A program made the position numbers and the translations under genes. 64,000 nt of DNA from positions 62,001 through 126,000 of the IMG/VR virus record IMGVR_UViG_3300030294_000005; one strand, written 5' to 3'. This document shows, one piece after another, positions 25,301-54,330 of the stretch (its first letter is position 1; each line of letters begins with the position of its first letter). The notes beneath the pieces are model-generated. The model did not search any database and was not told where the DNA came from. It saw only the letters and a list, made by a program, of their open reading frames with translations. This DNA is from a virus.

Positions 25301-28300
25301 GAGTAATAATAACCCATTTATTGCTTTAATTGTTCCAGCTGTTAACTTCATACCAAGTGTTGGTTCTTGTACTATACCTATAATATTTGCAGCATCCATA
25401 AATCCTGATGTAAAATCTGCTATTGCCCAAATAGCATTTATTATACCTGCTGAACCTATTAACCCTGCAACTTTACCACCTATCTTTGCTGCTGATTCTG
25501 TAACATGTTTTTCTAACCATTCTGTTAATGGTTTTGCTAAATCTTTACCAACTACTTTTACACCACCACTAAGACCTTTAAATGTTTCATTAGCGACTAA
25601 TTGTTCCATAAATTGAGTTACTTTTTTACATAATTTATCTATAATCCCTTTTCCAGCATCTTTAGCAAGTGATGAGGCTACATCTTCAGCTCCTGTTTTT
25701 GCAGCATCTGTTGTTACTGTTTTTATTGCTCCTGTTACTGTATTTTTAACAATATCTTCAGCACCTGTCTTTGCTGCATCTGTTGCTGCTGCTCTAGCTT
25801 CTTTTTTAGCTGTCATTCCTGTAACATCTAAAATTTTATTTTCAACACTACTTCCAACTTTTGTGCTTAACTTATCTAATCCTGTTTTTTTATCTATATA
25901 ATCAAATGGCTTTCTTAATAGATCTCCTGCTTTATCTAATACCCCAACTCCAGTTTTCTTAACTACTTTAGTAGCTTTTCCTAATAATGTTTTTGGAGCT
26001 GATCTATCTACTAATTTAGCAACAGTTTTTATACCATTACCACCTTGTATAACATCTCTTGCAGCAGAAGTTGCTACATGAGTTTGTACTGATTCTTCAC
26101 CATTTTGACCAGATAATCCAACTGCTGTTCCTGCTGTTGTTACTAATGCTGGGAATAAATTAAGTAATGCAAATTTTATACCATCAGCTAGAACTGGCAT
26201 TAATTCATCTCTCATCCATGGTCCTACGGTTTTAGTTAAAAATGGTTGAATTGTACCATCCCATAAATCTTTTAAAACAGGTCCTACTACTTTAACTATT
26301 TGAGGAAGGAATGCTACTGCTGCACCTATACCAGCTACCATTTTAATCTTATCTAATATATCATCTAGAAATGAATTCTTTTTATCTTTATCTTTATTAA
26401 ATGGATTTAATTTATCAACAAAGCCTTTAAACATATCTCCAAACTTTGCAAATATACTTTTATTACTATTTTCATCTTTTGCTGCATCTTCTAAAGCAAG
26501 TTTAGTACTAGTATCTCCTCTATCTGCAACTAAATCTTTTCTACCATTTCTGGTAAATTTCATTACATTTCCATGTTCATCTATCTTCTCTACAAGATTC
26601 TTACTATCAGCATTATTTTTAACAAGAGTAGTAAGTCTATCAAGCATTTTCTGAAATATAGTTCTATTATCTGAATCATTTTTATTCATATTGACTAATA
26701 ATGATGGAACTACTTTCATAACAGATTCAACAGCATTTGGAGTATTAACATATTCACCCTTACTTAAAGCTGCTATTTTAGTTTTATCAACTATACCACC
26801 AGTTGCATAAGTTTCTACTTTATTTGGATCTAAACCTTCTGCTTCTGTAGTCTTTTCTTCGTCTTCTTTTCTAACTTCAGGATTGAAATAAGGTTTAAAT
26901 CTATCTTCAGATTTTAAATCATTCTCATTTAATTTATACTCATCTCTAATACCCTTTCTAAATTTATCTAAATATTCTTTAGGAGTTTGTAATGACTTAA
27001 TTTTTCTTATAGTACTTTCTGTTGGTTTAGATGATTTTAATTTTACTAAATCATTTAAAGCTTTTTCTTTTAATTCTTTTGGTAAATTTGAATCATTAAT
27101 TTGTTCAAATCTCTTATTAATCATATCACTTACTGTTTTATTAATTGCATCTTGCTTTTTATTCTCAGGAATTGATTTACTAAAGATTGTTTTTTTTGCA
27201 ATATCTGTAGAGTTTTTAGTATATTCTTCAGTATTCAATTCATTGACATCCATTCCAGCTATTTTCTTAAGTACATCTAAAGTATCTTTAAAATAATTAA
27301 TTATTTCTTTATGATTGGTTTGTTCCATTTCTAGAACTACTGTTTGTTCTGGTGTTACATTAGGATCTTGCTCTTTTGTCCCACCAACTTCTTTCTTAAC
27401 CAGATTCATATACTTTTCTATATCATGTTTATTAGTTAAATCTAAATTCTTAAGTCCTGGAATATTCTTTAATTTCTTTTGTAATTCTGCAGTAGTTTCT
27501 TTACTATTATTAATCATATTATTAGTCGATTTTAATTTATTAGAATTTTGATCAATAAGATTTAATAAATCAAAAGCTTTTGTATTATCTTGATTTTGTA
27601 AATCATTTATCATTTTAGTTACTTCATCAAACTTACCAGCTTTTATTAACTTTTCTGCTTTTGTGGCATCAGCATTATTACTAAATAATTTATATATATC
27701 TGGTTGTTTTTTTCTAAATAATTTAGCTCTATCTGATATAGACATTGTTTTATCGTTCCAAGAACTAGATAAGTCTTTTACTAGACCATGTCTATTTTTT
27801 GTATTATCAAGATTTTTACTATTTTGGATATCTATATATTTCTTTGCTTTATCAGTTTCACCACTCTTATCTATTTGTTTCATAGCACTCATGCTTTTAT
27901 CATATGATAAATATTTAGATATTTCTGAACCCATTGAATTAGTTAAATCAACTTTTTTCTTATGCAAATTTTTATCATTACTATTTAATAAATCTAATGT
28001 ACCAACTAATTCTTTTTTATCATCATCAGACATATCATTTAACATTTCATCAAAATCAGCAAACTTATCTTTCTTTAAGAAAGTATCTACTTTATTAGTT
28101 TTTCTATAATTAACTCTCTCTTCAGCAGACATATAGTCAGCGTTACCAGTTCGTATATGTGACTTTCTTCTACTTTTACCATAGGCTCCTAGCATTGCGA
28201 AAGGTGCACCTATAATTTTCTTTGGTAGAAAAGTTAATGTCTTGAACATGCCACTAAAGAAGCCCTTTAATGGTTTCAGTAATTTATCTTCTACTAATTT

Positions 28301-31300
28301 TGTCAATGGAACTCCAAATGCATTTTCAAAACTTTTATTTATATGACCTCCTATTTTATCAAACATTCCTTTGAATAATAATTTTATATCTTTCTTAATA
28401 GGATCAAATGCTTCTTTTAAAGGAGAAAATATCTTATTTTCTATAAAGTCTTGAATCTTAGTGGTAGTTACAGTCATAAATGATTTTAATGGATCTATAA
28501 GTACATGCCTTAATGAAGGTAATAATCCATTTTCATATTCTCCTGTCTTAGGATCTTTTGTACCAAATATAACTTTATTAAATTGATCAGTAGAACTGAG
28601 CATCCCACCTGCTGCTCCAATAGCTGCATTACCTAATAATCCAAATGGTCCAGTGAACACACCTATAGCTGCTCCTGCTGCCATTCTTGGTAAAAACTTT
28701 TTAATTTGTTCTTGATGTTTAGGTTTGATTAAACCTGTTTCACCAAATAAGAAATCCATTGCATGTTCATTATTTTTAGCAAATGCTATAGAAGAACCTA
28801 TTAATAATCCACCTACAGGTCCAAATGGAACAAATGGTAATAATCCTGTTAATCCACCAGCTATGCCAAATGATTGTAAATCTGGTGCTAACTTAGATAT
28901 TTGGTCTACAAATTTCTTTGGTATTACTCCACCATCTCGTTCTTTTGTTTCAGCATTAAAATCTCCAAATAACCAGTTCTGAATTTTCTCACTATTTTTA
29001 GTTAATGATATTCCAGCTCCTACAGCTGCACCTAATAAAGGTCCACCTATGGCCCCTGTTATTAATGAAACACCTCCACCTAGAAGTCCAGCTCCCATTG
29101 CTTCTGGTGCATATTTAGATATATTCTTTGTTACATCACTTATAGCTTCACCAAATTTCTTTTTCTCTCTATTTGGATTAACTCCAAATAAAGCATCTTT
29201 AACTTTGGTTGTTCCTTTATACAATTCATCTACAACCTGTTTTGCAAAAGGTTCTGATTCATTATACATTGCTCGTTGAATTGGATCTGTTGGTATTCCT
29301 TTTTTATCAAATTGACTTATCTTAGTAGTATACTCTTCTAATGCTTTATTCAAATTGATATTAAATACATTGAATACTTTATCATATAATTTATTGGCTT
29401 TTAATTCTTGTAACTTATTAAGTAGTTCGGGGTTTTCTACAGCAGTAGACATAAAGTTAGTAAATTCATCTTTACTACCGAGTTTAGAAGATTCTACAAA
29501 CCCTTGTACTTTTTTATCAGCTTGGATACCTATAGATCTAGATGATCTACCTAAAGCTGTACCTGATTCTATATCAGTTAATATACCTAATAAACTTTTA
29601 ACTTTATCAGATGTCAAAACTACTTCACCTTTACCTAATGTAGCAACCTGAGCATTTTCAATAACTCCACCTTGTTCATGATGAGGCATATTTTTATACA
29701 TCCAGTTTGATATTACACTAGTAAGACCTTGTGCAAATCCTAATGTTGCTTTTCCTTCTGGATTAGTAGTTAATGATGGATCTAATATATCTGCTTTTAT
29801 AGAACCTCTTTTAGTAGTTTCGCTAGTACTCATTGCTGATTTTAATAAACCAAATATACCAGATACGTTCTCTTTTATTGAAGATAAATAATCTGATACT
29901 TTTGTATTAAATCCTCCACCTTGTTGATCATCCATAGTGTTAAATGCAGATGCAGTTCCTTCAAAGTCTTTTGCTGATTTTTTAATTGCATCTTGAGGAG
30001 AATATTTATTAGCTATTATATCATTTACTGAAAGTTTTGATAATGAATCTTCATTAAATAATATATTATATTTACCTAACTTACTATATAGCTTAGAATA
30101 TGAACCATCTTTCTGTGACAAATCTTTTGTAAGATTCATCAATGTATTGAATTTTAAAGAGTCTAATTCCATTGGTTTATTAGCAAAACTATTAAATATA
30201 TTTTCCAATAATCCTTGTTCAGAATCGTCTAAGTTTGCTAAGTTCTTTAAGCCTTTACCATATTCATGCTTACTATATTCGAATACTCCTTCATTTACAT
30301 TTTGTTGCTTATCTACTAATTTCGATATAGTATCTGCAACTTTATTTTCTGTTTTTGGAATAGTTCCATCTTTAGCTTTAACATCTAATTCATCTAAAGA
30401 ATTTTCCATATTAACTTTAGTCTTTGATTTCTTTGATCTAAATTTATCAACTAATGGGCCATATACTGTCTTAAGTGAATTCTTTGATACTTGAAAAGCA
30501 TTAGCAAAAACATCTTTAGTTGCTTTCATTATTGCTGAGAATAATCCAGTATCTTTAGCAAATAAATAATCATGCATATTTTTCTTAATCTCATCTGGAT
30601 CAAGTCCAAACATACCAAATACTTTTTTGCTTAAGTCTCCCATACTCTTTATATCTAGTTTTTGCTTTATTGGATTTAGTATCTTTTCATTTATAAATAG
30701 ATTAAGTTGACCAAATTGACTAGCCAATTCTAATTTCATTATTCCAAATATACCATTAACATCTTGACCTTTATATTTAGTACTTCCAAATACTAAATCA
30801 TACATTCTTTGATCTACTTTGTTTATAGTATTCATTACAAATTTCATAGGCTTTGCTGTTATTTCGTTTAGTTTATCAATAACAGTTTTAGTTTTATCTG
30901 TTATACTGTCAGCTTCTAATAATTTATCTATTAAACCCTTCTTCTCACTTGCTTGATCTTTAAATCCTTTTTTAATATTTTCTAATTCTATCTTAGAATG
31001 AAGTTTCTTTGATAATTTAGTTTCATCATCTATATCAGAAACATTTATAACAGTTTTATCTTTTGATAATTGTCTTTCTTGGTCTCTTTTAAATCTTTCT
31101 TGATCTCTTTCAGCTTTTTGCCTTTTATCCGTTTCTGGTTTAATTCTTCTATTATCAGCTAAAGTTATACCATTAGAAGATGTTGGCATCGTATATTCAC
31201 TATCACCATATAATATTTTAGATTTGGAACTTGAAGATGAACCAAGACCATTTTGTCTTATAGCAGTTAATTCTTTGTACATATTTTGTAAGTAATAAAA

Positions 31301-33085
31301 AATATTATTACCTTTTTTATCTAGAGTTTTTAATAGACTAGAACTTCCTAAACCGCCTGAAGTAGTAGTAGTGCCATCTCCTTTTTTATCTAAAAATTCA
31401 CCAGAATTAAACCCATTAAATAAAGATTGTAAAATAGAGTCTGCACTATTTTCTTTAGACTTCATATCTTTAGTCTGTCTATCTCTTTGTTCTACTACAT
31501 TAGCACCTAATCCTAATTGTGTAGGTTTGTCCATATTTTTAAACATTGTTTTAAATATAGCCATTGATTTAGCATCTACACCATAGTCTATATGATCTGT
31601 AGTATTCTTGCTATTTACATCAAAGAATCCACCTTTATCATAAATACTTGATAATATTTTGTCCATATCTTCTCTTAATTTTTTCTGTTCATCTACAGTA
31701 TTAAAAGTTAAATATTTCATATATCCATCTATCTTGGTAAGAACATCACTAGATGCATCATTTTTATATCGCTTTTTACTATCCTCAAATGATTTCTTAA
31801 CAGATTCAGAGTCTACAAATTTTCCTTCATCATAATCATAAAGTCTTTCAGACTTACCTGATAATACTGCTAATATTTTACTTAGATATCCAGGAATAAC
31901 TTCTATAAGAGATTTTCTAGATTTGCCATCCCAATCAACTTTTCCCTTTTCATAGTTCTTAGTTTCTATTGTTGATTTTGCTGCATTTGATATTCCAAAG
32001 ATTTCACCTATCTTATTTAATATCATATTATCACTAGATTTCATTCCATTGATTTTAGCTATTATAGATCCAAAGAATCCTTTTAAACTATTATCAAAAT
32101 TTTTAATAGATTTGTCTAATGACTTTGGAATCATTTTATTTACTATATATGTCGGTACAAATTGTAATGGTGATGCCATAAACATCTCAAGCATATTACT
32201 ATCGTCACCCATCATACTATTCATAGATGTAAGTGATCCCATAGAATTACCAAAGTTCTTTTTTACATTTTTCATATACATCTTTATATCAGGAATACCT
32301 TTTCCCATTACATCTTCATATGAAATTCTATTTGATTCTTTCTGCTCTGTTTTCTTAGGAACTAAATTATCAGCTATTTGTCTTAGTAAAGATGTTTGTT
32401 CGAGCATTAGTTTATTAGACTCTTCAAAATACTTTTTAGAATTCTCTGCATGAGTCTGTAAAACTGTACTTGAGAAACTTAAAACTTTTGATATATTATC
32501 ATTTATAGCAGATAAGTTATTATTAAACAAATTATATGCGTGCATATTCTGGGTATATAGCATATTTGTTCCAGTTTTTTGAGAATCTGATGTATATTTT
32601 GCAGTTCTTGCTATTGTTGATGATATCATTTGTGCACTTTGTTCACTTGCAACTGAAATAACATCTGATATCATTAGATCTCCACTAGTTGTTGATCCTT
32701 TACCACTATCAAATGAACCAAATCCATCATCTTCTGAATCAAAATCTATATCATTAAATCCATCAGAATCTCCAAATCCCAAATTCTTATTTGTGATTTT
32801 ATCTATTCTGTCTTTATTCCAAAGTCTACCAGTTTGCAGATCTTCAAATACAGATGTTATACCAGTATCTGCTGCTTCATATATTTTAGAAGTCTTAAGT
32901 AAACTAAGACCCTTCTTATATGTGGTTTTATAGTTTATTATATTATGAGTTATATCTTTAAATAATTCAGAGTTAGTCTGTACTAAATCTGCAGTTGTAG
33001 GTGCTATTTTTGCGAATTTGTCTACTGTAGCATATGCTACAGACTTTCCTAAATTAGATATATAATTTGCTACTTTTATAGCCAT
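22337..33085 (-). CDS. giant tape measure protein with C39-like peptidase and GH24 lysozyme domains
   Basis: 3,582 residues. Most of the chain is long helices, as in tape measure proteins. Two tape-measure signatures recur: LGKGEVVLTSDKVKSLLG near 1149 and LSKGEYVNTPNAVESV near 2111. Three Gly-rich hydrophobic hairpins lie around 1322-1365, 1402-1435 and 1462-1500. Two duplicated pairs lie near 2677/2762 (NDTKIRSD) and 2856/2929 (LGSxLG...GNP). At 3037-3185 is a C39-like peptidase (Cys in SGCGPTSAAM near 3066, His in GGHFIVGAG near 3155). At 3270-3415 is a GH24 muramidase with Glu-x8-Asp-x5-Thr in DKEGF...YKDVTG...TIGYG. GGFGGS-type linkers separate these. It sets tail length and probably opens the wall for DNA entry. 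Confidence 0.9.
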   Translation of the reverse strand: MAIKVANYISNLGKSVAYATVDKFAKIAPTTADLVQTNSELFKDITHNIINYKTTYKKGLSLLKTSKIYEAADTGITSVFEDLQTGRLWNKDRIDKITNKNLGFGDSDGFNDIDFDSEDDGFGSFDSGKGSTTSGDLMISDVISVASEQSAQMISSTIARTAKYTSDSQKTGTNMLYTQNMHAYNLFNNNLSAINDNISKVLSFSSTVLQTHAENSKKYFEESNKLMLEQTSLLRQIADNLVPKKTEQKESNRISYEDVMGKGIPDIKMYMKNVKKNFGNSMGSLTSMNSMMGDDSNMLEMFMASPLQFVPTYIVNKMIPKSLDKSIKNFDNSLKGFFGSIIAKINGMKSSDNMILNKIGEIFGISNAAKSTIETKNYEKGKVDWDGKSRKSLIEVIPGYLSKILAVLSGKSERLYDYDEGKFVDSESVKKSFEDSKKRYKNDASSDVLTKIDGYMKYLTFNTVDEQKKLREDMDKILSSIYDKGGFFDVNSKNTTDHIDYGVDAKSMAIFKTMFKNMDKPTQLGLGANVVEQRDRQTKDMKSKENSADSILQSLFNGFNSGEFLDKKGDGTTTTSGGLGSSSLLKTLDKKGNNIFYYLQNMYKELTAIRQNGLGSSSSSKSKILYGDSEYTMPTSSNGITLADNRRIKPETDKRQKAERDQERFKRDQERQLSKDKTVINVSDIDDETKLSKKLHSKIELENIKKGFKDQASEKKGLIDKLLEADSITDKTKTVIDKLNEITAKPMKFVMNTINKVDQRMYDLVFGSTKYKGQDVNGIFGIMKLELASQFGQLNLFINEKILNPIKQKLDIKSMGDLSKKVFGMFGLDPDEIKKNMHDYLFAKDTGLFSAIMKATKDVFANAFQVSKNSLKTVYGPLVDKFRSKKSKTKVNMENSLDELDVKAKDGTIPKTENKVADTISKLVDKQQNVNEGVFEYSKHEYGKGLKNLANLDDSEQGLLENIFNSFANKPMELDSLKFNTLMNLTKDLSQKDGSYSKLYSKLGKYNILFNEDSLSKLSVNDIIANKYSPQDAIKKSAKDFEGTASAFNTMDDQQGGGFNTKVSDYLSSIKENVSGIFGLLKSAMSTSETTKRGSIKADILDPSLTTNPEGKATLGFAQGLTSVISNWMYKNMPHHEQGGVIENAQVATLGKGEVVLTSDKVKSLLGILTDIESGTALGRSSRSIGIQADKKVQGFVESSKLGSKDEFTNFMSTAVENPELLNKLQELKANKLYDKVFNVFNINLNKALEEYTTKISQFDKKGIPTDPIQRAMYNESEPFAKQVVDELYKGTTKVKDALFGVNPNREKKKFGEAISDVTKNISKYAPEAMGAGLLGGGVSLITGAIGGPLLGAAVGAGISLTKNSEKIQNWLFGDFNAETKERDGGVIPKKFVDQISKLAPDLQSFGIAGGLTGLLPFVPFGPVGGLLIGSSIAFAKNNEHAMDFLFGETGLIKPKHQEQIKKFLPRMAAGAAIGVFTGPFGLLGNAAIGAAGGMLSSTDQFNKVIFGTKDPKTGEYENGLLPSLRHVLIDPLKSFMTVTTTKIQDFIENKIFSPLKEAFDPIKKDIKLLFKGMFDKIGGHINKSFENAFGVPLTKLVEDKLLKPLKGFFSGMFKTLTFLPKKIIGAPFAMLGAYGKSRRKSHIRTGNADYMSAEERVNYRKTNKVDTFLKKDKFADFDEMLNDMSDDDKKELVGTLDLLNSNDKNLHKKKVDLTNSMGSEISKYLSYDKSMSAMKQIDKSGETDKAKKYIDIQNSKNLDNTKNRHGLVKDLSSSWNDKTMSISDRAKLFRKKQPDIYKLFSNNADATKAEKLIKAGKFDEVTKMINDLQNQDNTKAFDLLNLIDQNSNKLKSTNNMINNSKETTAELQKKLKNIPGLKNLDLTNKHDIEKYMNLVKKEVGGTKEQDPNVTPEQTVVLEMEQTNHKEIINYFKDTLDVLKKIAGMDVNELNTEEYTKNSTDIAKKTIFSKSIPENKKQDAINKTVSDMINKRFEQINDSNLPKELKEKALNDLVKLKSSKPTESTIRKIKSLQTPKEYLDKFRKGIRDEYKLNENDLKSEDRFKPYFNPEVRKEDEEKTTEAEGLDPNKVETYATGGIVDKTKIAALSKGEYVNTPNAVESVMKVVPSLLVNMNKNDSDNRTIFQKMLDRLTTLVKNNADSKNLVEKIDEHGNVMKFTRNGRKDLVADRGDTSTKLALEDAAKDENSNKSIFAKFGDMFKGFVDKLNPFNKDKDKKNSFLDDILDKIKMVAGIGAAVAFLPQIVKVVGPVLKDLWDGTIQPFLTKTVGPWMRDELMPVLADGIKFALLNLFPALVTTAGTAVGLSGQNGEESVQTHVATSAARDVIQGGNGIKTVAKLVDRSAPKTLLGKATKVVKKTGVGVLDKAGDLLRKPFDYIDKKTGLDKLSTKVGSSVENKILDVTGMTAKKEARAAATDAAKTGAEDIVKNTVTGAIKTVTTDAAKTGAEDVASSLAKDAGKGIIDKLCKKVTQFMEQLVANETFKGLSGGVKVVGKDLAKPLTEWLEKHVTESAAKIGGKVAGLIGSAGIINAIWAIADFTSGFMDAANIIGIVQEPTLGMKLTAGTIKAINGLLLLGIIPESILVDLLLPVFALVFDKDQKIKGMRDASVKQVSDYNTKNGTSYDITQYNKTVLGKKNLEDYAGDTMGSSTAWAGLNDTKIRSDQGIKDGSNISLMNRVNEGAAGLMNGLSFGKINTKDTAKMLNKGNDIIAYKADQTTKWAGNKVNGAKKWLADDSILAAGNDTKIRSDLGLKDGVSLNTTDRVSMAAAGLLDTLSGGKINTKDSVKVINGAITDIEGKATKFWTTTSTNITKTFTDLKSDVVTGADNANKKLGSMLGMLDEKGNPMKLTDGLSVGWGIFTKDIGAAWDGMKKTALDTFNNISTTLKTTFDNISKAFSNGLAAVDTKLGSILGFKDANGNPISLTAGIDTLGKAMDNAINNIKTTVGNTVNNVGTSISNGWNSFTNGVSNFFNPVTTSLTASSNSSIAQRNAAVGGNGPAQSNNNKNKGGFGGSTNNGMVYYSQGDSDWSNTSYPYNGKGTIGTSGCGPTSAAMVISSLTKQKVTPVDTSAYAVNNGFRVEAGTSWDYFKNIGNKYGIGFDQTIDQKSILSALQNKQPVIFTGKGPAPFTTGGHFIVGAGSDGNNIEINDPVSLARSKSYPNTQIFKGMESAFIANKALDGTIPDVSSSASDTSSTDGTATTPSSLFDMLTGFQGIMTNGFNRIYGLDTTTDSSTGTTSTSVSTSADGLTSDNLVNFIKDKEGFRDKLYKDVTGTATIGYGSTHGAIMGKTSVTKDEATVQLKADLGDTATKLKADLDKKGVKLTQNQFDSLCSLGYNIGVNGLLSSNFYASIVGGQRSQSAITDGFNSFSHDGNNNVIPGLLPRRKEEASIFLSGTAPAYVSGGNGLDNTEMLKYRTTKMTEGGFGKAPSKIENTRSGGFGGSQTKINNKNKGGFGNILEYNNDVPTAKSTSSSDNTVTIGLIKSIINVLIKISSNTDNLQKIVEMLANVLNVKVPAQAIQNATTAAGTKQLSDMLSNSVDSSNTVDNSALLKILDQLAKE

Positions 33086-33131
33086 AACTTTCTACCTCCT
33101 TTCTGTTTGGATTATTATAATGTTATTGTAA

Positions 33132-33169
33132 TAAAAAAAATGAAGGTATGAGCTATTACACTCATACCT
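33132..33169 (-). terminator. Rho-independent terminator
   Basis: Stem AGGTATGAG/CTCATACCT (33144-33152 with 33161-33169) followed on the minus strand by TCA and eight T. It ends the small-gene unit before the tape measure gene's own ribosome site (AGGAGGTAG). Confidence 0.85.
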
Positions 33170-33173
33170 ATTT

Positions 33174-33452
33174 TTATAATATTTCTTTTTTAAATTTTTC
33201 TATTTTTAATATAATAAAATTAAATCCTGATAGATTATCTGGAGCACTTACTTTTAAATCACAATATAAATCTTTATGCTCTTCTTTTATTTCTGTATTA
33301 ATATCAGAAACAAATTTATCTACACTTTCATCATTTAAATCAAATATAGCTTTAGATGTTTGAGTGTTTACATAAGCTGTTATGTAATCATAATTATTTA
33401 AATTATTTAGTATTAGATTTTTACAATTTTTCTTTACTTCTATTACATCCAT
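33174..33452 (-). CDS. hypothetical protein
   Basis: 92 residues from the second ATG (MDVIEVKKNCKN). That start is chosen because AGGGG lies 9 bases before it but only 1 base before the upstream ATG. The N-terminal half is helical, the C-terminal half reads like alternating strand and helix (DLYCDLKVSAPDNLSGFNFI). It ends with KFKKEIL just before a terminator. No family recognised. Confidence 0.5.
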   Translation of the reverse strand: MDVIEVKKNCKNLILNNLNNYDYITAYVNTQTSKAIFDLNDESVDKFVSDINTEIKEEHKDLYCDLKVSAPDNLSGFNFIILKIEKFKKEIL

Positions 33453-33457
33453 ATTAA

Positions 33458-33535
33458 TCATACCCCTTTTTTATTATAGATTGGACATTTTATTTCTTTA
33501 TCTAAATTTAATAAATCTCCTTCTTTAATTCCCAT
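33458..33535 (-). CDS. candidate 25-residue peptide
   Basis: Short frame MGIKEGDLLNLDKEIKCPIY-NKKGV with a good AAAGGAGAATATT ribosome site and an ATGA-type overlap region with the next gene's start zone. Ends in a CPxYxxxG element like a half zinc ribbon. Too short to be sure; it could be a leader peptide that couples translation to the 33174 gene. Confidence 0.35.
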   Translation of the reverse strand: MGIKEGDLLNLDKEIKCPIYNKKGV

Positions 33536-33572
33536 AATATTCTCCTTTATTATAATGTTAATTTTTCATAAT

Positions 33573-34121
33573 TTATTTTAATAAATAGAGATTAGTTTCT
33601 AAATGTAATATAGTTGTTTTATGAAGTTTCATTTTCTTATAATTCTTCAAGTAAAATTCCATTGCTGTATCATTAAACTTTTTACCCATAGCATTCCAAT
33701 CACATATCATTTCTAATATTGATAAATTATCCATTGCTCTACAAGATATAATATTTTCATCTTTATAATCGTAGTTACACCAATAATTCCAATGATGCTT
33801 ATTACACATAAAATGATGTCTCCAAGCATAATCAAAATTAGATTTGCATTCTAAATAACTACGACTTATACAACTTAAACCATTAGTTATTTGTTCTGTG
33901 TTATACATCTTTTCTAGTTTAATTCCATCTACTCCATAAAACCATTTAGCATATGGTATAAATTCTTTAGGATTGAGCTTACTTAAATCATGAGTAAAAG
34001 CATGAATAATTAATCTAATCTTAGTTTTATTACTATATTTCTTTGAGACTTTAATACATTCTTTAAAAACATTTTTCTTATGCTCACATACATATTTAAA
34101 ATATTTTATATATATATTCAT
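33573..34121 (-). CDS. DUF5662-like metal-binding-type protein
   Basis: 182 residues from MNIYIKYFKYVCEHKKNV; this start has GGGAGGATTATATT ahead of it, and an in-frame upstream ATG would run through a terminator. Key blocks are HAFTHDLSKLNPKEFIPYAK, FDYAWRHHFMCNKHHWNYW and EMICDWNAMGKKF, with ELTIK-like basic C-terminal helices. The HD-like HDLSK and HH...HHW clusters are typical of the DUF5662 family, common in phages and Clostridia, whose biochemical role is not established. The His/Asp pattern suggests metal binding, possibly HD-type phosphohydrolase activity. Confidence 0.65.
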   Translation of the reverse strand: MNIYIKYFKYVCEHKKNVFKECIKVSKKYSNKTKIRLIIHAFTHDLSKLNPKEFIPYAKWFYGVDGIKLEKMYNTEQITNGLSCISRSYLECKSNFDYAWRHHFMCNKHHWNYWCNYDYKDENIISCRAMDNLSILEMICDWNAMGKKFNDTAMEFYLKNYKKMKLHKTTILHLETNLYLLK

Positions 34122-36536: not shown

Positions 36537-39500
36537 ATGATATTTTTAGACGAATTGGATAATCTAAAATTATATAAAAAACAATTGTTTTTACCAATAA
36601 ACGAAAAAAATAAAAGAAAAGGTTCTGCCGTTTTTTTATTAACTCCAAATTATGAATCATCTAAAAAATTAATGAATAATGATAGTTTAGTTACCAGATG
36701 GTTTGAAAGTTATTATATAGAGAAGGATATATCATATTTTATAAATCAAGAAGGATATATTGTTCTTAATGATAATATTCCATATAATGTATTAAATGAA
36801 GAATTAAGAAATAGAATTGTTGTTACTAATACAAATAATATTATAAATGAAGCAGCAACAGATACTAAATTGGTTAAAGTTAAAGATCATCCATTATATG
36901 ATTATCTAAACTTTGATGAATATGATCCAGATGATATAATAGAGATTCCAATTTCTGATATAAAAGGAACTAATTTAGCTGAAGCTGATATACCTAATAC
37001 TTTAAAAGATCCAAAGAGTCTTCAAAGAGCATTGAAAATAAGGATGAGAAAACCTATAAATAGATTAAAGAGAATAGATCCTACTGACCCATCTAATACT
37101 GCAGCCCAAGTAGAAAAGATACAAGCATTAATGAATGAAAGTGCTTTAACTACAGAAGAGAAGAAAAAATTAAAAGATTCAGATTATGGATTATTAAAAA
37201 AGAAAAAATATCCTATGCCAGATAAGGAGCATGTACTATCAGCTATAAGATTTTTTAATTATGTAGATTCTGAGGATGAAAAAGAATTAGCTGATAATAT
37301 AAATAAAAAAATAAAAGAATATAAGATTGAAGATCAAGTTAATGTAGGAAAGAATAATAGATTTTCTAAATATTGCAATGAAGAATCTATAAAAGAATAT
37401 TTTAATTCTGAATCAACTCCTATTATATATGATTTACATTGTGCATTTTTAAAGTTCTTAGATGGACATTCTACAGAAGATGAAATGCTTTCAGATGTAG
37501 ATGTGAGATTTAAAGATAATAGTGAATTAATGAATGATGGATTAATAAATGACATTGATATATTTAATGACATTTCTGATTGTATATCATTTTATCTACC
37601 AAGATTAATTGATAAATGCAAATGCGATATAACTAAAATATTGAATAAATATTTATTCAATGATGATCTACAAGAATCATATATGGTAGGACATGTAGTC
37701 AAAGACTATTCAATTGACAAAATGGGACTAATGACAAAAGATTCTTTAATTATGTTTAATGAGAATATGGATGAAACAATAATGAATGAAGCAAATAAAG
37801 ATTACAATCCTGTTCTTTATAAGTTATTATATAATGAAAGATATAGAACTCCTAAAGAAGTAATAGCAATATATGATAATGTAAAGATAGATGCTCCTTA
37901 TATAACTAAAACATATTTAGATTATACTAAATATAGTAAACTCAATCTATTTGTAGATCTATCTTTCTATAACCAAACCTTCTTTAAAAATAATATATAT
38001 AAATTAGATAAGGGTATAGATTTATATTTTGAGTTTATAACAAGATTCTTAAAAGATTCTAGATTGGGAGCTGCGGGATATAATAAGAAAACTGTATTCA
38101 TTCCTGTTGATGACTGGACTAAACCTGATATGAAAAAAGTATATAACTATACTGAAGATATAAATCCGTTATCAATGATTTGTAGACTTATGGGGACTAC
38201 CAAATTATTAAATATACAACAAGAGTGGAAAGATATTGTATTAGTATTATTCTCTGCTCAAGGATATTTTAAAATAGATATCAATAGTTTAGTTGATAAA
38301 GATATAAGTCAAATACAAGTATTATTAAATAAACTAAAAAATAAAGATGTATCAATAGCAACTGATAATATAGATTCTCCTAAGGCTATAGTAGCTACTA
38401 TTGTAGATAAGATTGAAATTAGTCAAAATATAGAAATTAATAATTTGACTGGTAAAGCAGCAAAAGGAACTATATCTAATGGTGAGTTAGATGATAAGTT
38501 AAGTAATTCTGTTACATCTAAAACTGTTATTGATATTAATAAAAATGCACCTTCTGAAGATGTAGCACAGAATGATGATTTAAAAAATGAATTAGTTACT
38601 AAATTAAAAGATGCTTCTAAAGATGCTGCTTCAACTAATAATGTATTAGATGACATAAATAATGATGATGATATTAAAAAAATAATAGATACATTGTCAA
38701 CACAAGAAGATAATTCAGTAAAAATTAATGCAGCAAGATCAGCTAGAGTAACTAAATTGAACAATGATTTTTTAGACAGTAAGTTAAAAGAAACTACAGT
38801 AAAACAAATGATTGAACATGCTACCAATAATGAGCCTATCCCAAAAACTGAATTAAAAATAGATAGTGTGAATGAAGAGTGGAAAGACTTACGTTATATG
38901 AATTTTGAAAAAATATATAATCCAGCTGATGATATAGTAACTATGATAAATAGTTTTTCAGATAAAACAGCTCCAGTTATGGTACGAAATTTAAATATAG
39001 AAGACTCTTCTACTACAGAAGATTATAAAGATACCTGGACTGCTGAAATGGAAGATGTAAATGGAACTAGGTTTACATTAAAATTCGATATACCTAAATT
39101 TAAAGAAAATAAATTTATGTTATTAGGTGGTAATGAAAAAACAATAAATGGACAACTTGTATTATTACCTATAATAAAAACTGATGAAGATACTGTTCAG
39201 ATAGTTTCAAATTATAATAAAATATTTATAAGAAGATTTGGAACATCTAAAGGAAAATCTAATATAGTTGCTAATAGATTAATAAAAGCATTATCTAAAG
39301 AAAATCCCTTTAAAGTAGTTCCTGGAGATAATACAAAGATATGTTCTAAATATGAATTACCAATAGACTATATAGATTTAGCCTCACAATATTCTAAAAT
39401 AGAAACTAAGAAGCATATATTTTATTTTAATCAAGATGAAATAAGGGAGAAATATAAAGATACTATAGATCTTAAAAAAGGAATTCCAATATGTGTTGAA

Positions 39501-41780
39501 AAAGTTTCTAATAATATTATATATTTTAATGGTGATAATAATCAACAATTAGCAAATCTAATAAGATCTCAATTAATAATAGATGATTCATCATTTGAAG
39601 AAATATTTGAAAATACATCAATTGCTTCAAGATATACCTACTCAAAGGCTAGTATACTGAACACTGAGATTCCTCTAATACTCGTTATGGCATATAGTGA
39701 AGGTTTGCCTAAAGTGTTAAAGAAAGCCCATATAAATTACGAAATAATAGAAAAGAGACCAGCTTATGATAAGAATACCCAAGATATTATAAAATTTAAA
39801 GATGCATATATTTTATATACTTTAGATTATAATTCATCTTTATTGATGAATGGATTTAAAGAATGTGGAACTGAATTATATTCAATTTCAGAGATAACTA
39901 ATAAAACTATGTATTTAGATTTTCTTGATTTATTTGGCGGTAGATTAAGAGCAGATGGTCTTGATAACTTTCATGATTTAATGATAGATGTACCTATCAC
40001 AAAAGAAATATTAGAGTATTATAAACTACCAACTGATTATATAGAAGTTTTAGCTTATGCTAATTCACTGCTAGGAGATAATAAATATATAAGACATACT
40101 GATCAACGTGGTAGAAGGTATAGATCTAATGAAATAGTTGCTGGATATGCTTATCAAGCATTGGCTGATTCATATGGAGAATATAAAAGAAAGTTGAATC
40201 AATCAAGAAAAGCTACAATGGTTATAAAACAAAATGAAGTAATAAATAGAATCTTATTAGATCCAACAGCTTCTGATTTATCTACATTAAATCCAATACT
40301 AGAGCAAGAAGCTATGAATACTGTTAGTACAAAAGGACTAGTAGGAATGAACTCTGATAGAGGTTATAGTTTAGATAAAAGAACATTTGATAAATCAATG
40401 ATAAATGTATTAGGATTATCTACAGGGTTTGCTGGTAATGTTGGTATCTCAAGACAAGCAACAATAGATATGAATATAGAAGGTAAACGTGGATATATAA
40501 AAGTAACTGATGATCCAGCTGATTTAAATGTAACTAAATCTTTAACTATAACTGAAGCATTAACTCCATTCGGTACTAATATGGATGATCCATTTAGATC
40601 TGCAATGACATTTATACAAACATCTAAACATGGAATGAGAATAGCAAAAGGAATGCCTTCATTAATAACTAATGGAGCAGATGAAGCTTTGCCATTTATG
40701 GTTACTGATAAATTTGCATTTAAAGCTAAAGAAGATGGAAAAGTTATAGAGAGGTCAGATGATTATATGATAGTGCAATATAAATCTGGTGCTAAAGATT
40801 TTGTTGATTTAAGAAATAATATTAAAAAGAATTCTGATGGAGGTTTCTATATAACTTTAAAGCTAGACTCTGATTATAAAAAAGATAAAACATTTAAAAA
40901 AGATAATATACTTGCATATGATAAATTATCATTTTCAGATATGGTAGGTCATACAGATGATATTGGTTATAATTTAGGAGTATTGGTAAAAATAGCAATA
41001 TTAAATACTGATGAAGGTTATGAAGATAGTGCAATAATTTCAGAATATTTATCTGAAGCAATGGCATCTGAAGTTGTTGTAATGAAAGATATATCATTAC
41101 CAAAAAATACTAATATTTATAATATTGTAAAGAAAGGCGAACCAATTCAAGAAGGAGATCCATTAATAATATTTCAGAACTCTTTTGATGAAGAAGATGC
41201 CAATTTACTATTAAAGAATCTAGCTGGAGATGAAGAAGATATATCTGATCTTGGAAGAATTAGAGTTAAGTCTAAAATAACTGGAAATGTAGAGAATGTC
41301 AAAATCTATAGAACAGTTGAAAAAGAAGAGTTATCTGATTCTCTTAAGAAAACAGTAAATCAAATAGAAAAACCAACAAAGCAATTAAAAGATGTAATGA
41401 AAAAATATGATATAGATGAGTATAATAAACTGGACCCAGATTATAAACTTGATTCAACTGGAAAACTTAAAAATACAGATGATGGAATCCTGATAGAGTT
41501 CTATTTAAAATATAAAGATAAAATGTCTGTAGGAGATAAGTTAATATATTATTCAGCATTAAAAGGTGTTATAAAAGATATATTCCCACTTGGTAAAGAA
41601 CCATCATCTGAGTTTAGAAAAGATGAAAAAATTCATACACTCCTTGCATGTTCCTCAGTTAATGGTAGAATGGTGGGAAGTATATTATTATCTGCCCCTA
41701 TAAATAAAATAGTAATAGAATTAGATAGAGCAGTTAAAACTGAATTAGAAATACCATTTAAATATTTAGATGAGGAATAA
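36537..41780 (+). CDS. phage-encoded RNA polymerase beta subunit with N-terminal virion-type extension
   Basis: 1,747 residues against about 1,200-1,340 for bacterial beta. The beta-like part runs from about 860 to the end: FMLLGGNEKTINGQLVLLPI near 860 (the 'GTFIINGTERV' position), HTDQRGRRYRSNEI near 1190 (the 'NRR' position), DPFRSAMTFIQTSKHGMR near 1353 (the 'RALMGSNMQRQ' position), LNTDEGYEDSAIISE near 1490 (the 'GYNYEDAI' position) and VGDKLIYYSALKGVI near 1666, with both active-site lysines kept. The first 850 residues are phage-specific, with IINEA (102-106), LMNES (198-202), IMNEA (415-419) and a YPMPDKEHV...AIRFFNYV module at 225-245. No beta' is in this window. Transcribed alone, after AGAAGGAG. 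Confidence 0.88.
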   Translation: MIFLDELDNLKLYKKQLFLPINEKNKRKGSAVFLLTPNYESSKKLMNNDSLVTRWFESYYIEKDISYFINQEGYIVLNDNIPYNVLNEELRNRIVVTNTNNIINEAATDTKLVKVKDHPLYDYLNFDEYDPDDIIEIPISDIKGTNLAEADIPNTLKDPKSLQRALKIRMRKPINRLKRIDPTDPSNTAAQVEKIQALMNESALTTEEKKKLKDSDYGLLKKKKYPMPDKEHVLSAIRFFNYVDSEDEKELADNINKKIKEYKIEDQVNVGKNNRFSKYCNEESIKEYFNSESTPIIYDLHCAFLKFLDGHSTEDEMLSDVDVRFKDNSELMNDGLINDIDIFNDISDCISFYLPRLIDKCKCDITKILNKYLFNDDLQESYMVGHVVKDYSIDKMGLMTKDSLIMFNENMDETIMNEANKDYNPVLYKLLYNERYRTPKEVIAIYDNVKIDAPYITKTYLDYTKYSKLNLFVDLSFYNQTFFKNNIYKLDKGIDLYFEFITRFLKDSRLGAAGYNKKTVFIPVDDWTKPDMKKVYNYTEDINPLSMICRLMGTTKLLNIQQEWKDIVLVLFSAQGYFKIDINSLVDKDISQIQVLLNKLKNKDVSIATDNIDSPKAIVATIVDKIEISQNIEINNLTGKAAKGTISNGELDDKLSNSVTSKTVIDINKNAPSEDVAQNDDLKNELVTKLKDASKDAASTNNVLDDINNDDDIKKIIDTLSTQEDNSVKINAARSARVTKLNNDFLDSKLKETTVKQMIEHATNNEPIPKTELKIDSVNEEWKDLRYMNFEKIYNPADDIVTMINSFSDKTAPVMVRNLNIEDSSTTEDYKDTWTAEMEDVNGTRFTLKFDIPKFKENKFMLLGGNEKTINGQLVLLPIIKTDEDTVQIVSNYNKIFIRRFGTSKGKSNIVANRLIKALSKENPFKVVPGDNTKICSKYELPIDYIDLASQYSKIETKKHIFYFNQDEIREKYKDTIDLKKGIPICVEKVSNNIIYFNGDNNQQLANLIRSQLIIDDSSFEEIFENTSIASRYTYSKASILNTEIPLILVMAYSEGLPKVLKKAHINYEIIEKRPAYDKNTQDIIKFKDAYILYTLDYNSSLLMNGFKECGTELYSISEITNKTMYLDFLDLFGGRLRADGLDNFHDLMIDVPITKEILEYYKLPTDYIEVLAYANSLLGDNKYIRHTDQRGRRYRSNEIVAGYAYQALADSYGEYKRKLNQSRKATMVIKQNEVINRILLDPTASDLSTLNPILEQEAMNTVSTKGLVGMNSDRGYSLDKRTFDKSMINVLGLSTGFAGNVGISRQATIDMNIEGKRGYIKVTDDPADLNVTKSLTITEALTPFGTNMDDPFRSAMTFIQTSKHGMRIAKGMPSLITNGADEALPFMVTDKFAFKAKEDGKVIERSDDYMIVQYKSGAKDFVDLRNNIKKNSDGGFYITLKLDSDYKKDKTFKKDNILAYDKLSFSDMVGHTDDIGYNLGVLVKIAILNTDEGYEDSAIISEYLSEAMASEVVVMKDISLPKNTNIYNIVKKGEPIQEGDPLIIFQNSFDEEDANLLLKNLAGDEEDISDLGRIRVKSKITGNVENVKIYRTVEKEELSDSLKKTVNQIEKPTKQLKDVMKKYDIDEYNKLDPDYKLDSTGKLKNTDDGILIEFYLKYKDKMSVGDKLIYYSALKGVIKDIFPLGKEPSSEFRKDEKIHTLLACSSVNGRMVGSILLSAPINKIVIELDRAVKTELEIPFKYLDEE

Positions 41781-41826
41781 AAAATAAAAATAGAGTAGGC
41801 ATATGCCTACTCTACAATTTTGTTAT
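41781..41826 (+). terminator. bidirectional terminator
   Basis: A 24-base perfect palindrome TAGAGTAGGCAT/ATGCCTACTCTA at 41792-41815 between convergent genes. The minus strand continues into TTTTTATTTTTT, the plus strand into CAATTTTG, so it works best for the minus-strand fibre gene. Confidence 0.85.
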
Positions 41827-43484
41827 AAATCAATTAATTTAGCTTTTACCTCATTAATATATTTACTATTAATAAATATATCCATTACTGACCAATCTAT
41901 AGTTTTATCAAAAGTTGTTGTAGATAGGTCGTGATTATTTAATATATTAATTAAAGTAGTTAATGCTGTTCTTATTTCAGTCATTTCAGTTAATCCAATA
42001 AAATTAGGATTAGCAATACCTATATTAAATTGGTATACTGATTGTCCATATGATTGTAATATCGTATTTACTGCAGTTCTAATTTCAGTAATATATAATG
42101 GTGTTATTATTGTTTCACCAGCAATTATAGTTGATGATGTTATTACATTAGCGGTTATAATAATAGAATTGAAAGTACTAAACCAATATGGATTATTTGT
42201 TCTTATAGATACGGTATTGGCTATATTTAAATCAGCTGCAATCTGAGGTTTAAATATTATTGTTTTGGCATTTAGAAAACTACTTCCAGTACTAGAAAAC
42301 CAAGTAGGATTGTCTACACTATTATATTCTATTCCTTTCCAAGTTACATATAATTTTTGATTATTACTATTAGGATCTAGATTAATTAGTATAGCTATTC
42401 TGGGTTTAGTATCATATACTATTTTATTTGTTAGTGGAAATAATATAGTAGGAGCTGTAGGTGGTAATTTCTTTGTACAAGAACCACCTCTAACTTCTGC
42501 ACTTACATATCCAAACGTATCTACTGATATTACACCAAAAGTAAATACTGCATTACATAGTGTATCACCTGGGAACGTATATAAATATGATGTTGAACCA
42601 GAAGTTGCTACAGCTAAATAAGTTCCATTCTTATATATATTTATTTTATAAGTAACTGTTTGACCTTCTGGATCAGATGCTGCATTCCAATTAACGGTTG
42701 TAGCAGTTTGTGCAAATGCTTCAGATGTAGAGACTCCACTTGTTGGATTAGGGCTTCTATTTTTATGAGATGTTCCAGATGTTGCCCATCCAGATGTTGC
42801 TCCAGAAGTATCTATTGATTTTACACTAAATGAATAACTAGTTCCTTCACCATCTCCAGATATATCTAAATTACAAGAGTTACCAGTGTAATTTGATGCA
42901 GCAGCTACTATATCAGAAAGACCACCACCATTTTTAGATACTGCTACTTCATAATGTATTGTATCACCTTCTGCATCACCAGCACCAGACCATGATACTG
43001 GTATTGAACCACTAAATATTCCAGAGCCAGGTGATATTGAATTAGGTGCTGATGGTGCGGTATTTGTAGCACTGTATCCTATATTTGCACTTGAAGTTGG
43101 GCCTCCTCCACATCCATTATTATCAGTATTACTATAAAAATAACCAGATATGCCTAGACTACCAGCTCCAGTTCCAACAGTAAATGTAAAATCTCTACTA
43201 CCTGAACCTAATTCTGGACCAGTACCATATAATGTTGAATCGGCATAAGTAGATCCTGGTTTTATAGCTATCCCATCTGCATGTGATCCATTTGCAACTA
43301 ATGATACATTAACATCATAACCATATCTACTATCAGTTCCTGCATCTGGTATAATAGCACCAGCAGATACTCTAACAGTAACAGAATTTCCACTTCTAGA
43401 TATTACATCACAATATAATTTACATAAAATCTTTGCCTGCATATCATTATGAGACCATAAATTTGAGGCTATAAGTGTAGCCAT
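41823..43484 (-). CDS. fibronectin-III tail fibre/adhesin-like protein
   Basis: 553 residues. The N-terminal 140 are Gly/Ser-rich strands (FTVGTGAGSLGISGYF), possibly attachment to the virion. Two fibronectin-III-like modules follow at about 143-240 (TAPSAPNSI start, DTIHYEVAVS strand, TSYSFSVKSIDTSG) and 245-335 (ATTVNWNAASDPEG, YKINIYKNG). The C-terminal third has repeated EIRTAVNTIL, EIRTALTTLI and NEVKAKLI units like the 'HLTELR' modules found in secreted bacterial proteins. A single-gene cassette flanked by terminators at 41781 and 43528. Compositionally Ser/Thr/Gly-rich and less AT-rich than neighbours. Probable receptor-binding or accessory fibre. Confidence 0.6.
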   Translation of the reverse strand: MATLIASNLWSHNDMQAKILCKLYCDVISRSGNSVTVRVSAGAIIPDAGTDSRYGYDVNVSLVANGSHADGIAIKPGSTYADSTLYGTGPELGSGSRDFTFTVGTGAGSLGISGYFYSNTDNNGCGGGPTSSANIGYSATNTAPSAPNSISPGSGIFSGSIPVSWSGAGDAEGDTIHYEVAVSKNGGGLSDIVAAASNYTGNSCNLDISGDGEGTSYSFSVKSIDTSGATSGWATSGTSHKNRSPNPTSGVSTSEAFAQTATTVNWNAASDPEGQTVTYKINIYKNGTYLAVATSGSTSYLYTFPGDTLCNAVFTFGVISVDTFGYVSAEVRGGSCTKKLPPTAPTILFPLTNKIVYDTKPRIAILINLDPNSNNQKLYVTWKGIEYNSVDNPTWFSSTGSSFLNAKTIIFKPQIAADLNIANTVSIRTNNPYWFSTFNSIIITANVITSSTIIAGETIITPLYITEIRTAVNTILQSYGQSVYQFNIGIANPNFIGLTEMTEIRTALTTLINILNNHDLSTTTFDKTIDWSVMDIFINSKYINEVKAKLIDL

Positions 43485-49915: not shown

Positions 49916-50671
49916 ATGAGATTTGAGTTAGAACGACAATTGATAGATTATACACATATGGTATTTGATTATTTTAATGGAAAAGTTAATAATATTCCAG
50001 CAAAAATAAATATAAGAAATAATAAAGATAAGAATATATTAGGAAATAATATGTTCAATATAGTCAATCTATATCTGTGGAATATAATAGATAATTACTG
50101 GGATGAGGATAGTATTAAAGAGCATATTATATATAATATTGTTCATGAATTATCTCATATAGGACAAGATATAGATTATTATATATACAGTATAGATAAT
50201 GATTACAATAAATTAAAAGAAAATGAAAATAATTATAACACGTACAAATATTTAAATGACAATATAAACTCTATATCCTTAGATTTAGGAATAGTTTTTA
50301 ATAATACTAATATACATAATAACTATATATATTTTAGTAAATATAGTAATTATAAAAGATTCGCATTAGAAGAGTATTACAAACACTGTATAAAAACTAT
50401 GTTATACAATGATACTAATAAAGATATATCACAAGAGGTAGATTTAGCATTTAAAATTGATAGTTTATCATTTGTAATAAATCATGTAGAATTTCCAATA
50501 AAAAAATATAATGTTATAAATCAAGATGTAAATGGATTTAATAATATAATAGAAGCATACAACAATACTAATACATCAATATCCTCTACTATTATAACAC
50601 AAAACTATGCAACTATTTGCATAAATTCAATTGTATACTTACATTATAATTTTAATATAGTGCAAGTATGA
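49916..50671 (+). CDS. putative HExxH zinc metalloprotein, no. 2
   Basis: 251 residues. Residues near 75 read IIYNIVHELSHIGQDIDYYI, with HELSH; a later FALEEYYKHCIKTMLYNDTN may supply the third ligand (EEYYKH). The N-terminus (RQLIDYTHMVFDYFNGKVNN) resembles the start of the first HExxH protein in style. Starts after AGGAGGATGCT. It ends the unit before a strong terminator. Metallopeptidase is likely; substrate unknown. Confidence 0.5.
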   Translation: MRFELERQLIDYTHMVFDYFNGKVNNIPAKINIRNNKDKNILGNNMFNIVNLYLWNIIDNYWDEDSIKEHIIYNIVHELSHIGQDIDYYIYSIDNDYNKLKENENNYNTYKYLNDNINSISLDLGIVFNNTNIHNNYIYFSKYSNYKRFALEEYYKHCIKTMLYNDTNKDISQEVDLAFKIDSLSFVINHVEFPIKKYNVINQDVNGFNNIIEAYNNTNTSISSTIITQNYATICINSIVYLHYNFNIVQV

Positions 50672-50680
50672 TAGCTATAG

Positions 50681-50724
50681 TATAAAGTAGTACCAAAATT
50701 TGGTATTACTTTATATTTTTTTTT
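50681..50724 (+). terminator. Rho-independent terminator
   Basis: 17-base stem TATAAAGTAGTACCAAA/TTTGGTATTACTTTATA with one G-T pair and almost no loop, then nine T. Ends the 47847-50671 operon. Confidence 0.85.
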
Positions 50725-50773
50725 AAATAAATCCCTACATATAGGTAAAAACTAAAAGGGAGACGATTTTAAT

Positions 50774-51361
50774 ATGATAACTAAAAAATTTGACAAGTTA
50801 GTATTATCAATATCTAATAAAGGAATACCATGTTTGTGGGAGAATGGTGGTAAAATAACTGATGATTTCGGACAATCATTTATTATAGCAGATAAACAAT
50901 CCAAACCTAAAAAACCTTTATATATAAGAACAGATCCAAAACCTAACAGTGGACATGCTCTAATACCTGTAAGATTACATGATATCATTATTGTTTGTAA
51001 GGTTAGGGATGAAGTGTCAACTATTCAAATTTATTCCATATCTAAAATAGATTTAGAAGAGAAATTAGCTTATGTTGATATGATAAATTCATTTGAAAAT
51101 GGAGAATGGGCAGCAGTTTCAAATCCTATATATGATACTGCTATAGCAGCAGCTACATTAAAAGCAAAAACTGTAAATTGTATTGATGTAGTATATGTTC
51201 TTGATAAAGATTTCAGAAAAGATTATGTTAAAAGTAATGATTCACAATATAAAAAAGAAGAAGTTAAGATTGATATCTTAGAATCTAATGAGGAAGTTAA
51301 AATAAAAAGTGAAGAGGCCGTAGGAAAGATTGGTGATCATGAACCTCAAATAGCAGTATAA
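50774..51361 (+). CDS. conserved-looking hypothetical protein
   Basis: 195 residues. Strand-rich with LVLSISNKGIPCLWENGGKI near 10, KPLYIRTDPKPNSGHALIPV near 50, RLHDIIIVCKVRDEVSTIQI and AAVSNPIYDTAIAAATLKAK. The last 40 residues are an acidic tail (KKEEVKIDILESNEEVKIKS). Starts after AAGGGAGACGATTTTAAT and sits alone between two terminators. No family recognised; the Gly/Pro strands resemble a virion protein. Confidence 0.5.
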   Translation: MITKKFDKLVLSISNKGIPCLWENGGKITDDFGQSFIIADKQSKPKKPLYIRTDPKPNSGHALIPVRLHDIIIVCKVRDEVSTIQIYSISKIDLEEKLAYVDMINSFENGEWAAVSNPIYDTAIAAATLKAKTVNCIDVVYVLDKDFRKDYVKSNDSQYKKEEVKIDILESNEEVKIKSEEAVGKIGDHEPQIAV

Positions 51362-51381
51362 TTAGTAATAATTTTTTAATT

Positions 51382-51418
51382 ATATCAGATGCGTAATTGC
51401 ATCTGATATTTATTTTTT
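51382..51418 (+). terminator. Rho-independent terminator
   Basis: Perfect 11-base stem ATATCAGATGC/GCATCTGATAT with a GTAATT loop, then TTATTTTTT. Follows the 50774 gene. Confidence 0.85.
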
Positions 51419-51447
51419 AACATTATTATAATAGGAGGTGATTAAGT

Positions 51448-52224
51448 ATGCGTGATCCATTAGGACTAATGGAAGCTGAAACAAAAGATCAACCATTTTC
51501 TGTAATAAAATTAGATAGTATACCAGATTTTGATATTGAAGATTATGATTTAATGGATTCAAAAGAATTTCAAAAATTTTTATATTCAATAGAAAATATT
51601 GCTAGAGTATCGTTTGAATATAGAGCTATAATAGCATATCTAAGAGAAAATATGGATATGAATAAATGTAGTGTTTTCGAAAATATAAATAATATAGATA
51701 CTACAAAAGTTAAAATAGAAATTCATCATCATCCATTTTCATTATATGATATAACTATTATTGTATATAATAAGAGGTTATATAATAGAGAATCTATAGA
51801 TGAAGAATTAGTTGCAAAAGAAGTTATGTATTTACATTATGCACTACTAATTGGATTAATACCATTATCAGAAACTGTTCATGAATTAGTTCATAATCAA
51901 TATCTATTTATACCAAATAGTAATGTTATGGGAAAATATGAAGAATTCTATAATATGTATAAAGATTTTATGACTCCAGAGAATATAGATATATATGAAA
52001 GAACTGTTGCTTTTAGTAATTCATATGATGAATCTAAACAAAATCATATATTAGATAAAAGCTATATTTATGTAGATTTAACTGGTTCTTATGACATTCC
52101 TACTTATCAAAGTGTAATAGATTCAATGAGTCATAAAATAAAAGAATTAAAATCTAGTAATAATGTAGATATGACGTTTGAATTACCAAAAAAGAAGAGA
52201 GTTATAAGTTTCTTAGATAAATAA
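51448..52224 (+). CDS. conserved phage protein with HELVH motif
   Basis: 258 residues. Blocks near 90-165 read KIEIHHHPFSLYDITIIVYN, then VAKEVMYLHYALLIGLIPLS, then ETVHELVHNQYLFIPNSNVM. The HELVH fits HExxH, but the surrounding conserved His (HHHPF, LHY) suggest a different metal or structural site, so it may not be a peptidase. I recall the same blocks in unnamed late proteins of large Firmicutes phages. Starts after AGGAGGTGATTAAGT. Confidence 0.5.
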   Translation: MRDPLGLMEAETKDQPFSVIKLDSIPDFDIEDYDLMDSKEFQKFLYSIENIARVSFEYRAIIAYLRENMDMNKCSVFENINNIDTTKVKIEIHHHPFSLYDITIIVYNKRLYNRESIDEELVAKEVMYLHYALLIGLIPLSETVHELVHNQYLFIPNSNVMGKYEEFYNMYKDFMTPENIDIYERTVAFSNSYDESKQNHILDKSYIYVDLTGSYDIPTYQSVIDSMSHKIKELKSSNNVDMTFELPKKKRVISFLDK

Positions 52225-54327: not shown

Positions 54328-54330
54328 TAT

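Follow-up and report, generated by a model that had tools for sequence, protein, structure and literature searches.

The multisubunit virion RNA polymerase (vRNAP) of phiKZ- and AR9-type phages has been described in reviews as an assembly of five polypeptides in which beta is split (PMC7598289), and a comparative survey reported that the beta protein bearing the DPBB carries a unique N-terminal region (PMC7824862). The subunit is known as g189 in AR9 and PBS1, g099 in phiR1-37 and beta-N in SPN3US, phiKZ and 201phi2-1; in these phages a beta core is combined with a phage-specific N-terminal region, and C-beta is a separate protein. In 201phi2-1 the vRNAP beta-N loses an N-terminal propeptide at TFE-275, and SPN3US leaves its own N-beta uncut (PMC5694885). 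An enzyme carried on a vRNAP subunit is known from AR9 g078, where an HD phosphohydrolase fused N-terminally to C-beta is cut off, the protein being annotated as 'proteolysed protein, contained only RNAP domain is found in virions'. A precedent for packaged, protease-trimmed and injected proteins is given by the T4 IPs and Alt (PMC9958956); IPI-III and Alt are non-essential effectors with a capsid-targeting sequence that are trimmed by gp21. Polyvalent proteins, which deliver several effector domains per polypeptide at infection, include a class centred on a virion polymerase, in which ART, lysozyme and PBECR domains are joined to N4-type vRNAPs (Iyer et al. 2017, PMC5512222); these RNAPs are of the single-subunit type, and a zincin peptidase on the same chain is the presumed agent of their cleavage. 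A fused metallopeptidase for self-processing is frequent among polyvalent proteins without being universal.

The gene considered here occupies positions 36537-41780 (plus strand) of a 64,000-nucleotide window, the whole stretch of DNA analysed, which corresponds to positions 62001-126000 of the 236,184-base IMG/VR record IMGVR_UViG_3300030294_000005; coordinates refer to the window unless the record is named, and all features of the gene given below lie on the plus strand. It is an ATG-initiated ORF of 1,747 codons with a strong ribosome-binding site, AAGGAGTG, about 10 nt 5' of the start, and it encodes the N-beta of a phiKZ/AR9-type multisubunit vRNAP. The protein matches the PHROG beta families phrog_3148 (1.2e-140) and phrog_14872 (1e-131), and gave no match in NCBIfam. 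As a single sequence the ORF found no match in the PDB either, where a profile was required: one built from the homologous core of 39 sequences matched the beta chains at 3e-18 and aligned with E. coli beta from about residue 126 to 1130. The beta core (residues 851-1735; 39087-41741) includes the DPBB active-site lysines K1668 and K1676, which are invariant in the alignments, and an AlphaFold model of residues 785-1747 (pLDDT 87) adopts a beta fold that matched a solved bacterial beta in Foldseek (5e-29). The ordered beta landmarks noticed in a first-pass annotation are thus present and homologous to beta. The best tblastn loci in the phage collection, at 30-34% identity, belong to AR9/PBS1/Goe21 and other Gram-positive jumbo phages, the coverage of N-beta starting there at residue ~403 or ~780. 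AR9 g189 and phiR1-37 g099, its orthologs, are annotated 'virion RNAP subunit' and 'phage structural protein', respectively; the subunit is of the virion type, as had been supposed at first pass, and through this orthology its presence in the virion is predicted. A fibronectin type III protein is encoded on the opposite strand at 41823-43484, convergent with the N-beta gene, and a 408-aa ORF at 44760-45986 matches thymidylate synthase families in its C-terminal half.

The first-pass annotation had taken the single long ORF and its ordered beta landmarks for an unsplit beta with an 850-residue virion-type extension. The chain nevertheless stops short, at about residue 1130 of E. coli beta; its C-terminal counterpart is supplied by a separate 243-aa C-beta gene (record 176683-177414), the ortholog of AR9 g078 without the HD domain; a 22-sequence C-beta profile aligns with E. 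coli beta 1189-1309 (E 0.003-0.016). C-beta is a separate gene in 22 of 24 relatives, and in this clade no enzyme is fused to it. Nor is a long chain an oddity, N-beta reaching 1418 aa in SA1, 1436 in LPJP1 and 1393 in phiR1-37. With C-beta encoded elsewhere and most of the supposed extension belonging to the standard vRNAP N-terminal region, as described below, the reading as an unsplit beta is refuted, which corrects that notion of the polymerase biology of this phage. The beta' partner that was to be sought in the rest of the genome was found, likewise split, as N-beta' (record 32559-34106) and Mid-beta' (record 133408-134625) orthologs by comparison with AR9, and the same genome encodes a second set of orthologs, the N-beta, C-beta, N-beta' and C-beta' of a non-virion polymerase (nvRNAP).

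The vRNAP N-beta' gene is apparently interrupted in its catalytic DxDxD motif (record 31300-34106, minus strand); one exon ends in ...GGDY, DGDQ follows in the downstream frame, and an ORF for an HNH-type endonuclease lies between. The interruption is likely an intron; Rfam gave no match to it, and none over 124 kb including the window. The AR9 large terminase has two matches among the record ORFs, 50567-51613 (348 aa) and 213489-215621 (710 aa). Within the window, a virion protein cluster at 5152-12251 may represent ejection proteins: two members weakly match phiKZ internal head proteins, and in several the phi-x-E(S/A) sites are in excess. A 3582-aa ORF at 22337-33085 has domains of the C39-like peptidase and phage lysozyme types close to its C-terminal end.

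The N-terminal region of N-beta consists of three parts. A conserved head segment (residues 1-70; 36537-36746), common to relatives that lack an insert, is modelled at a pLDDT of ~90, and a second part (residues 425-640; 37809-38456), which folds with it, at ~80-95. Between them lies a variable insert of about 346-357 residues (residues 73-418; 36753-37790), the predicted cargo region. In the AlphaFold model of residues 1-800 the confident parts are 1-70 and ~425-640, and residues 73-420 are of low confidence except for a module at 225-285 (pLDDT 85-92), a pattern that fits an insertion into a folded domain. When this model was searched against viral folds, the single match below E 0.001 was a PBS1 protein (2.5e-6), and tblastn of residues 1-450 against the cultured phages in the collection gave no match. 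To describe the first 850 residues as a phage-specific extension exaggerates their peculiarity, and the reading of the whole N-terminus as an extension was rejected: residues 1-70 and 425-850, judged from sequence comparison and the PBS1 match, correspond to the ordinary phage-specific region common to AR9, PBS1 and relatives, and only 73-418 varies among the relatives compared. The N-beta proteins of AR9, SA1, LPJP1 and phiR1-37 are without the 346-residue insert.

Comparison of 52 non-redundant N-beta sequences from IMG/VR showed that the spot between the head segment and the polymerase body is an insertion hotspot accommodating 0-700 residues, a feature absent from the first-pass account. 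In relatives with a recognisable N-terminus the head segment (1-70 in the numbering of this protein) is followed by the body (~425 onward); the two are contiguous in L092, L059 and L067, and elsewhere are separated by an insert of 50-700 residues, which in many relatives is of only ~75 aa, with several protease-type sites and no domain. A Pfam scan of the inserts of this N-beta and 15 relatives revealed a variety of domains: GNAT in L024 (1.5e-12) and L040 (2.4e-8), NUDIX (7.5e-7) with DUF6582 in L055, and a calcineurin-like phosphoesterase (5.1e-9) with a P-loop in L079, the GNAT, NUDIX and phosphoesterase matches all being above the Pfam cut-off. DUF6582 was found in a further six inserts (L027, L028, L031, L033, L041 and L053; best 1.4e-11). 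The inserts of L055 and L079 thus hold two unrelated domains each, that of this N-beta one recognised module, and no peptidase domain was detected in any of these 16 inserts. By eye, a transglutaminase-like C...H...D pattern can be discerned at about N-beta residues 230-350 of L037, with no Pfam match above cut-off. In a tree of the body the nearest neighbours of this protein are L080 and L024 (support 0.996 and 0.983), and the three carry different inserts, DUF6582-like in this protein, a 150-aa stretch without a module discernible by eye in L080, and GNAT in L024, an instance of swapping at one site. Natural gene splits occur in or next to the insert: in L159 and L164 the head segment, insert and the equivalent of residues 417-643 form a protein separate from the polymerase body, and in L162 the head segment and DUF6582 are encoded by one gene and the body by another, which shows that these parts need not be joined in a single chain. 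An intein or intron origin of the inserts is disfavoured because they are in frame, carry domains, vary in content and showed no intein or endonuclease domain in the scans.

The stretch around YPMPDKEHV, singled out at first pass as a module of a type associated with phage head proteins, is indeed DUF6582-like (Pfam PF20223; residues 207-262; 37155-37322), although here its score of 22.1 bits (E ~2e-4 to 8e-4) stays below the family cut-off of 27.3, which is exceeded in the N-beta of L027, L028, L031 and L033. Among 24 relatives, 19 genomes encode DUF6582 exactly once, but the carrier differs: the domain sits in N-beta, in stand-alone ORFs of ~100-120 aa or in unrelated proteins. This genome holds no second copy, phmmer found none in AR9, and a hand-written consensus used in tblastn against cultured phages returned no match; no mention of the domain was found in the literature searched. 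A phi-x-E lies 14-21 residues, usually exactly 16, before the FG motif of DUF6582 in 20 of 25 copies against a background of 20% (p = 2e-10, an optimistic value, the copies being homologous and a few N-beta genes counted twice), and the conserved glutamate could be part of the domain itself. Movement between carriers is not confined to DUF6582, as the P-loop carried by the N-beta insert of L079 has a homologue (6e-27) within a 1195-aa protein of this phage. That protein (record 53510-57097) has GNAT and P-loop domains and ten protease-like sites, and its orthologs in L150 and L160 carry DUF6582.

The phage encodes a prohead protease of the T4 gp21 family (Peptidase_S77, 1.2e-11; record 2960-3781), and the major capsid protein orthologs retain hydrophobic-x-E at the propeptide border. 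The three (I/L)xE(S/A) sites reported at first pass in residues 1-850 are exactly E105 (INE|A; 36849-36851), E149 (LAE|A; 36981-36983) and E380 (LQE|S; 37674-37676), all predicted cleavage sites by motif; in this protein alone their number is not beyond chance (3 against 1.0 expected, p = 0.08). A further predicted site, E201 (MNE|S; 37137-37139), lies at the conserved spacing just 5' of the DUF6582-like module. The insert is bracketed on the left by a predicted cut after E72 (INQE|G; 36750-36752), where relatives have INNE|S, INHE|S or LNE|A and the P1' glycine found here is weaker, and on the right by one after E418 (MNE|A; 37788-37790), where phi-x-E is present in nearly all of 28 insert-bearing relatives; this glutamate could instead be a structural residue. 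Across the relatives the motif is strongly enriched: the 28 inserts contain 38 [IL]xE[SA] motifs against 9.7±3.1 in shuffles, an estimate that is approximate and overstates independence, as the compared sequences are related. The polymerase bodies show no enrichment (40 against 42.8 expected), and the reversed motif and the xD and xK controls are flat in the inserts. With 16 representative inserts 30 sites were counted against 6.9, a number reached in 0 of 1000 shuffles, and leaving out this phage gave 27 against 6.5. When the proteins of this phage were ranked by their excess of sites, those near the top included N-beta, the protease itself, the likely internal head protein cluster and two proteins whose orthologs elsewhere carry DUF6582; capsid-targeting N-termini of the form M-x(2-16)-phi-x-E-(A/S), counted over the whole proteome, were not convincingly in excess (20 against 13.3±3.6). 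The enrichment in relatives' inserts and the gp21-family protease bear out the earlier reading of the motif, N-beta is a predicted substrate of the prohead protease, and it is plausible, by analogy with 201phi2-1, that its N-terminus is processed while the head is assembled.

Insertions are generally common in RNAP subunits, and the inserts might accordingly be permanent accessory domains that tune the polymerase without being cleaved, like the lineage-specific insertions of bacterial beta. The long N-terminal region that SPN3US N-beta retains in the virion would agree with this (PMC5694885). The strong excess of protease-type sites, seen in the inserts and not in the body, the placement of these sites between domains, the occurrence of DUF6582 and P-loop modules in unrelated carriers, and the natural division of the gene within or beside the insert all argue against such a role, which is considered improbable.

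The reading preferred here, with a probability of roughly 0.55, is that vRNAP N-beta also works as a polyprotein carrier, its cargo being released by cleavage as the head matures. The loop at about residues 72-418 would take up interchangeable modules, DUF6582 in this phage and GNAT, NUDIX, phosphoesterase or P-loop in relatives, with phi-x-E|(S/A) sites that would both bracket the modules and separate them from one another. During prohead maturation the gp21-type (S77) protease would most likely cut at these sites and free the module inside the head, the segment 1-70 and the body staying in the polymerase, and the freed cargo, like the polymerase, would afterwards pass into the host along with the DNA. 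The arrangement of the sites is consistent with this: of the 35 phi-x-E(S/A) sites in domain-bearing inserts, just one lies within a recognised domain and 34 do not (p = 0.007), and L055 shows the order VTE83, DUF6582, LTE188, NUDIX, MEE363 and then the body. Cleavage would also be expected if the insert were a long disposable propeptide that served the targeting or assembly of N-beta, was cut up and left the head, its enzymes being incidental or active only before packaging. SPN3US commonly has long propeptides that are cut at several places (PMC10052503), the 275-aa propeptide of N-beta is removed in 201phi2-1 (PMC5694885), of AR9 g078 the RNAP domain alone is found in virions, and the ~75-aa inserts of many relatives have several sites and no domain. 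This second kind of processing nevertheless appears unlikely, though less so than uncleaved accessory domains, since other inserts contain folded enzymes with recognisable motifs (the NUDIX box, GNAT, phosphoesterase) that the sites avoid, since the modules are common to several carriers, and since folded enzymes of 15-30 kDa would probably not exit easily through capsid pores. The uncut N-beta of SPN3US (PMC5694885) speaks against the carrier reading. Should N-beta carry cargo as proposed, the freed pieces may still be discarded from the head, given that the HD part of AR9 g078 is absent from virions and that T4 and SPN3US propeptides are usually lost.

N-beta itself is an ordinary subunit, and the unusual feature is the hotspot with its protease brackets; no description of a cargo-like insertion hotspot so bracketed was found in the literature searched. 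It resembles AR9 g078 in placing an enzyme on a vRNAP subunit, but the subunit and the enzyme are others, and the predicted cargo sits inside N-beta. The likeness to the T4 internal proteins and Alt lies in the predicted trimming and injection, whereas T4 cargo is encoded by separate genes with a tag of 10-20 aa and here would be part of a polymerase subunit. Unlike the N4-type polyvalent proteins, the RNAP is multisubunit, the predicted sites are those of a prohead protease and the scanned inserts have no peptidase domain. A wider proposal, held more tentatively and at somewhat less than an even chance, is that swappable effectors are carried in this one loop of N-beta and in other head polyproteins, freed by the protease in the capsid and injected with the polymerase for early host takeover or counter-defence, with DUF6582 as a recurrent cargo on varied carriers; it offers a concrete hypothesis on what this domain of unknown function, which is associated with phages, may do. 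Because the cut sites are predicted, virion proteomics can test the carrier idea directly. If true, it would join in a new way two known ideas, that giant phages carry a multisubunit polymerase in the virion and that T4-like heads hold ejection proteins processed by a protease; and should N-beta indeed release cargo, its insertion site could be searched, from sequence alone, for unknown injected effectors of uncultured phages.
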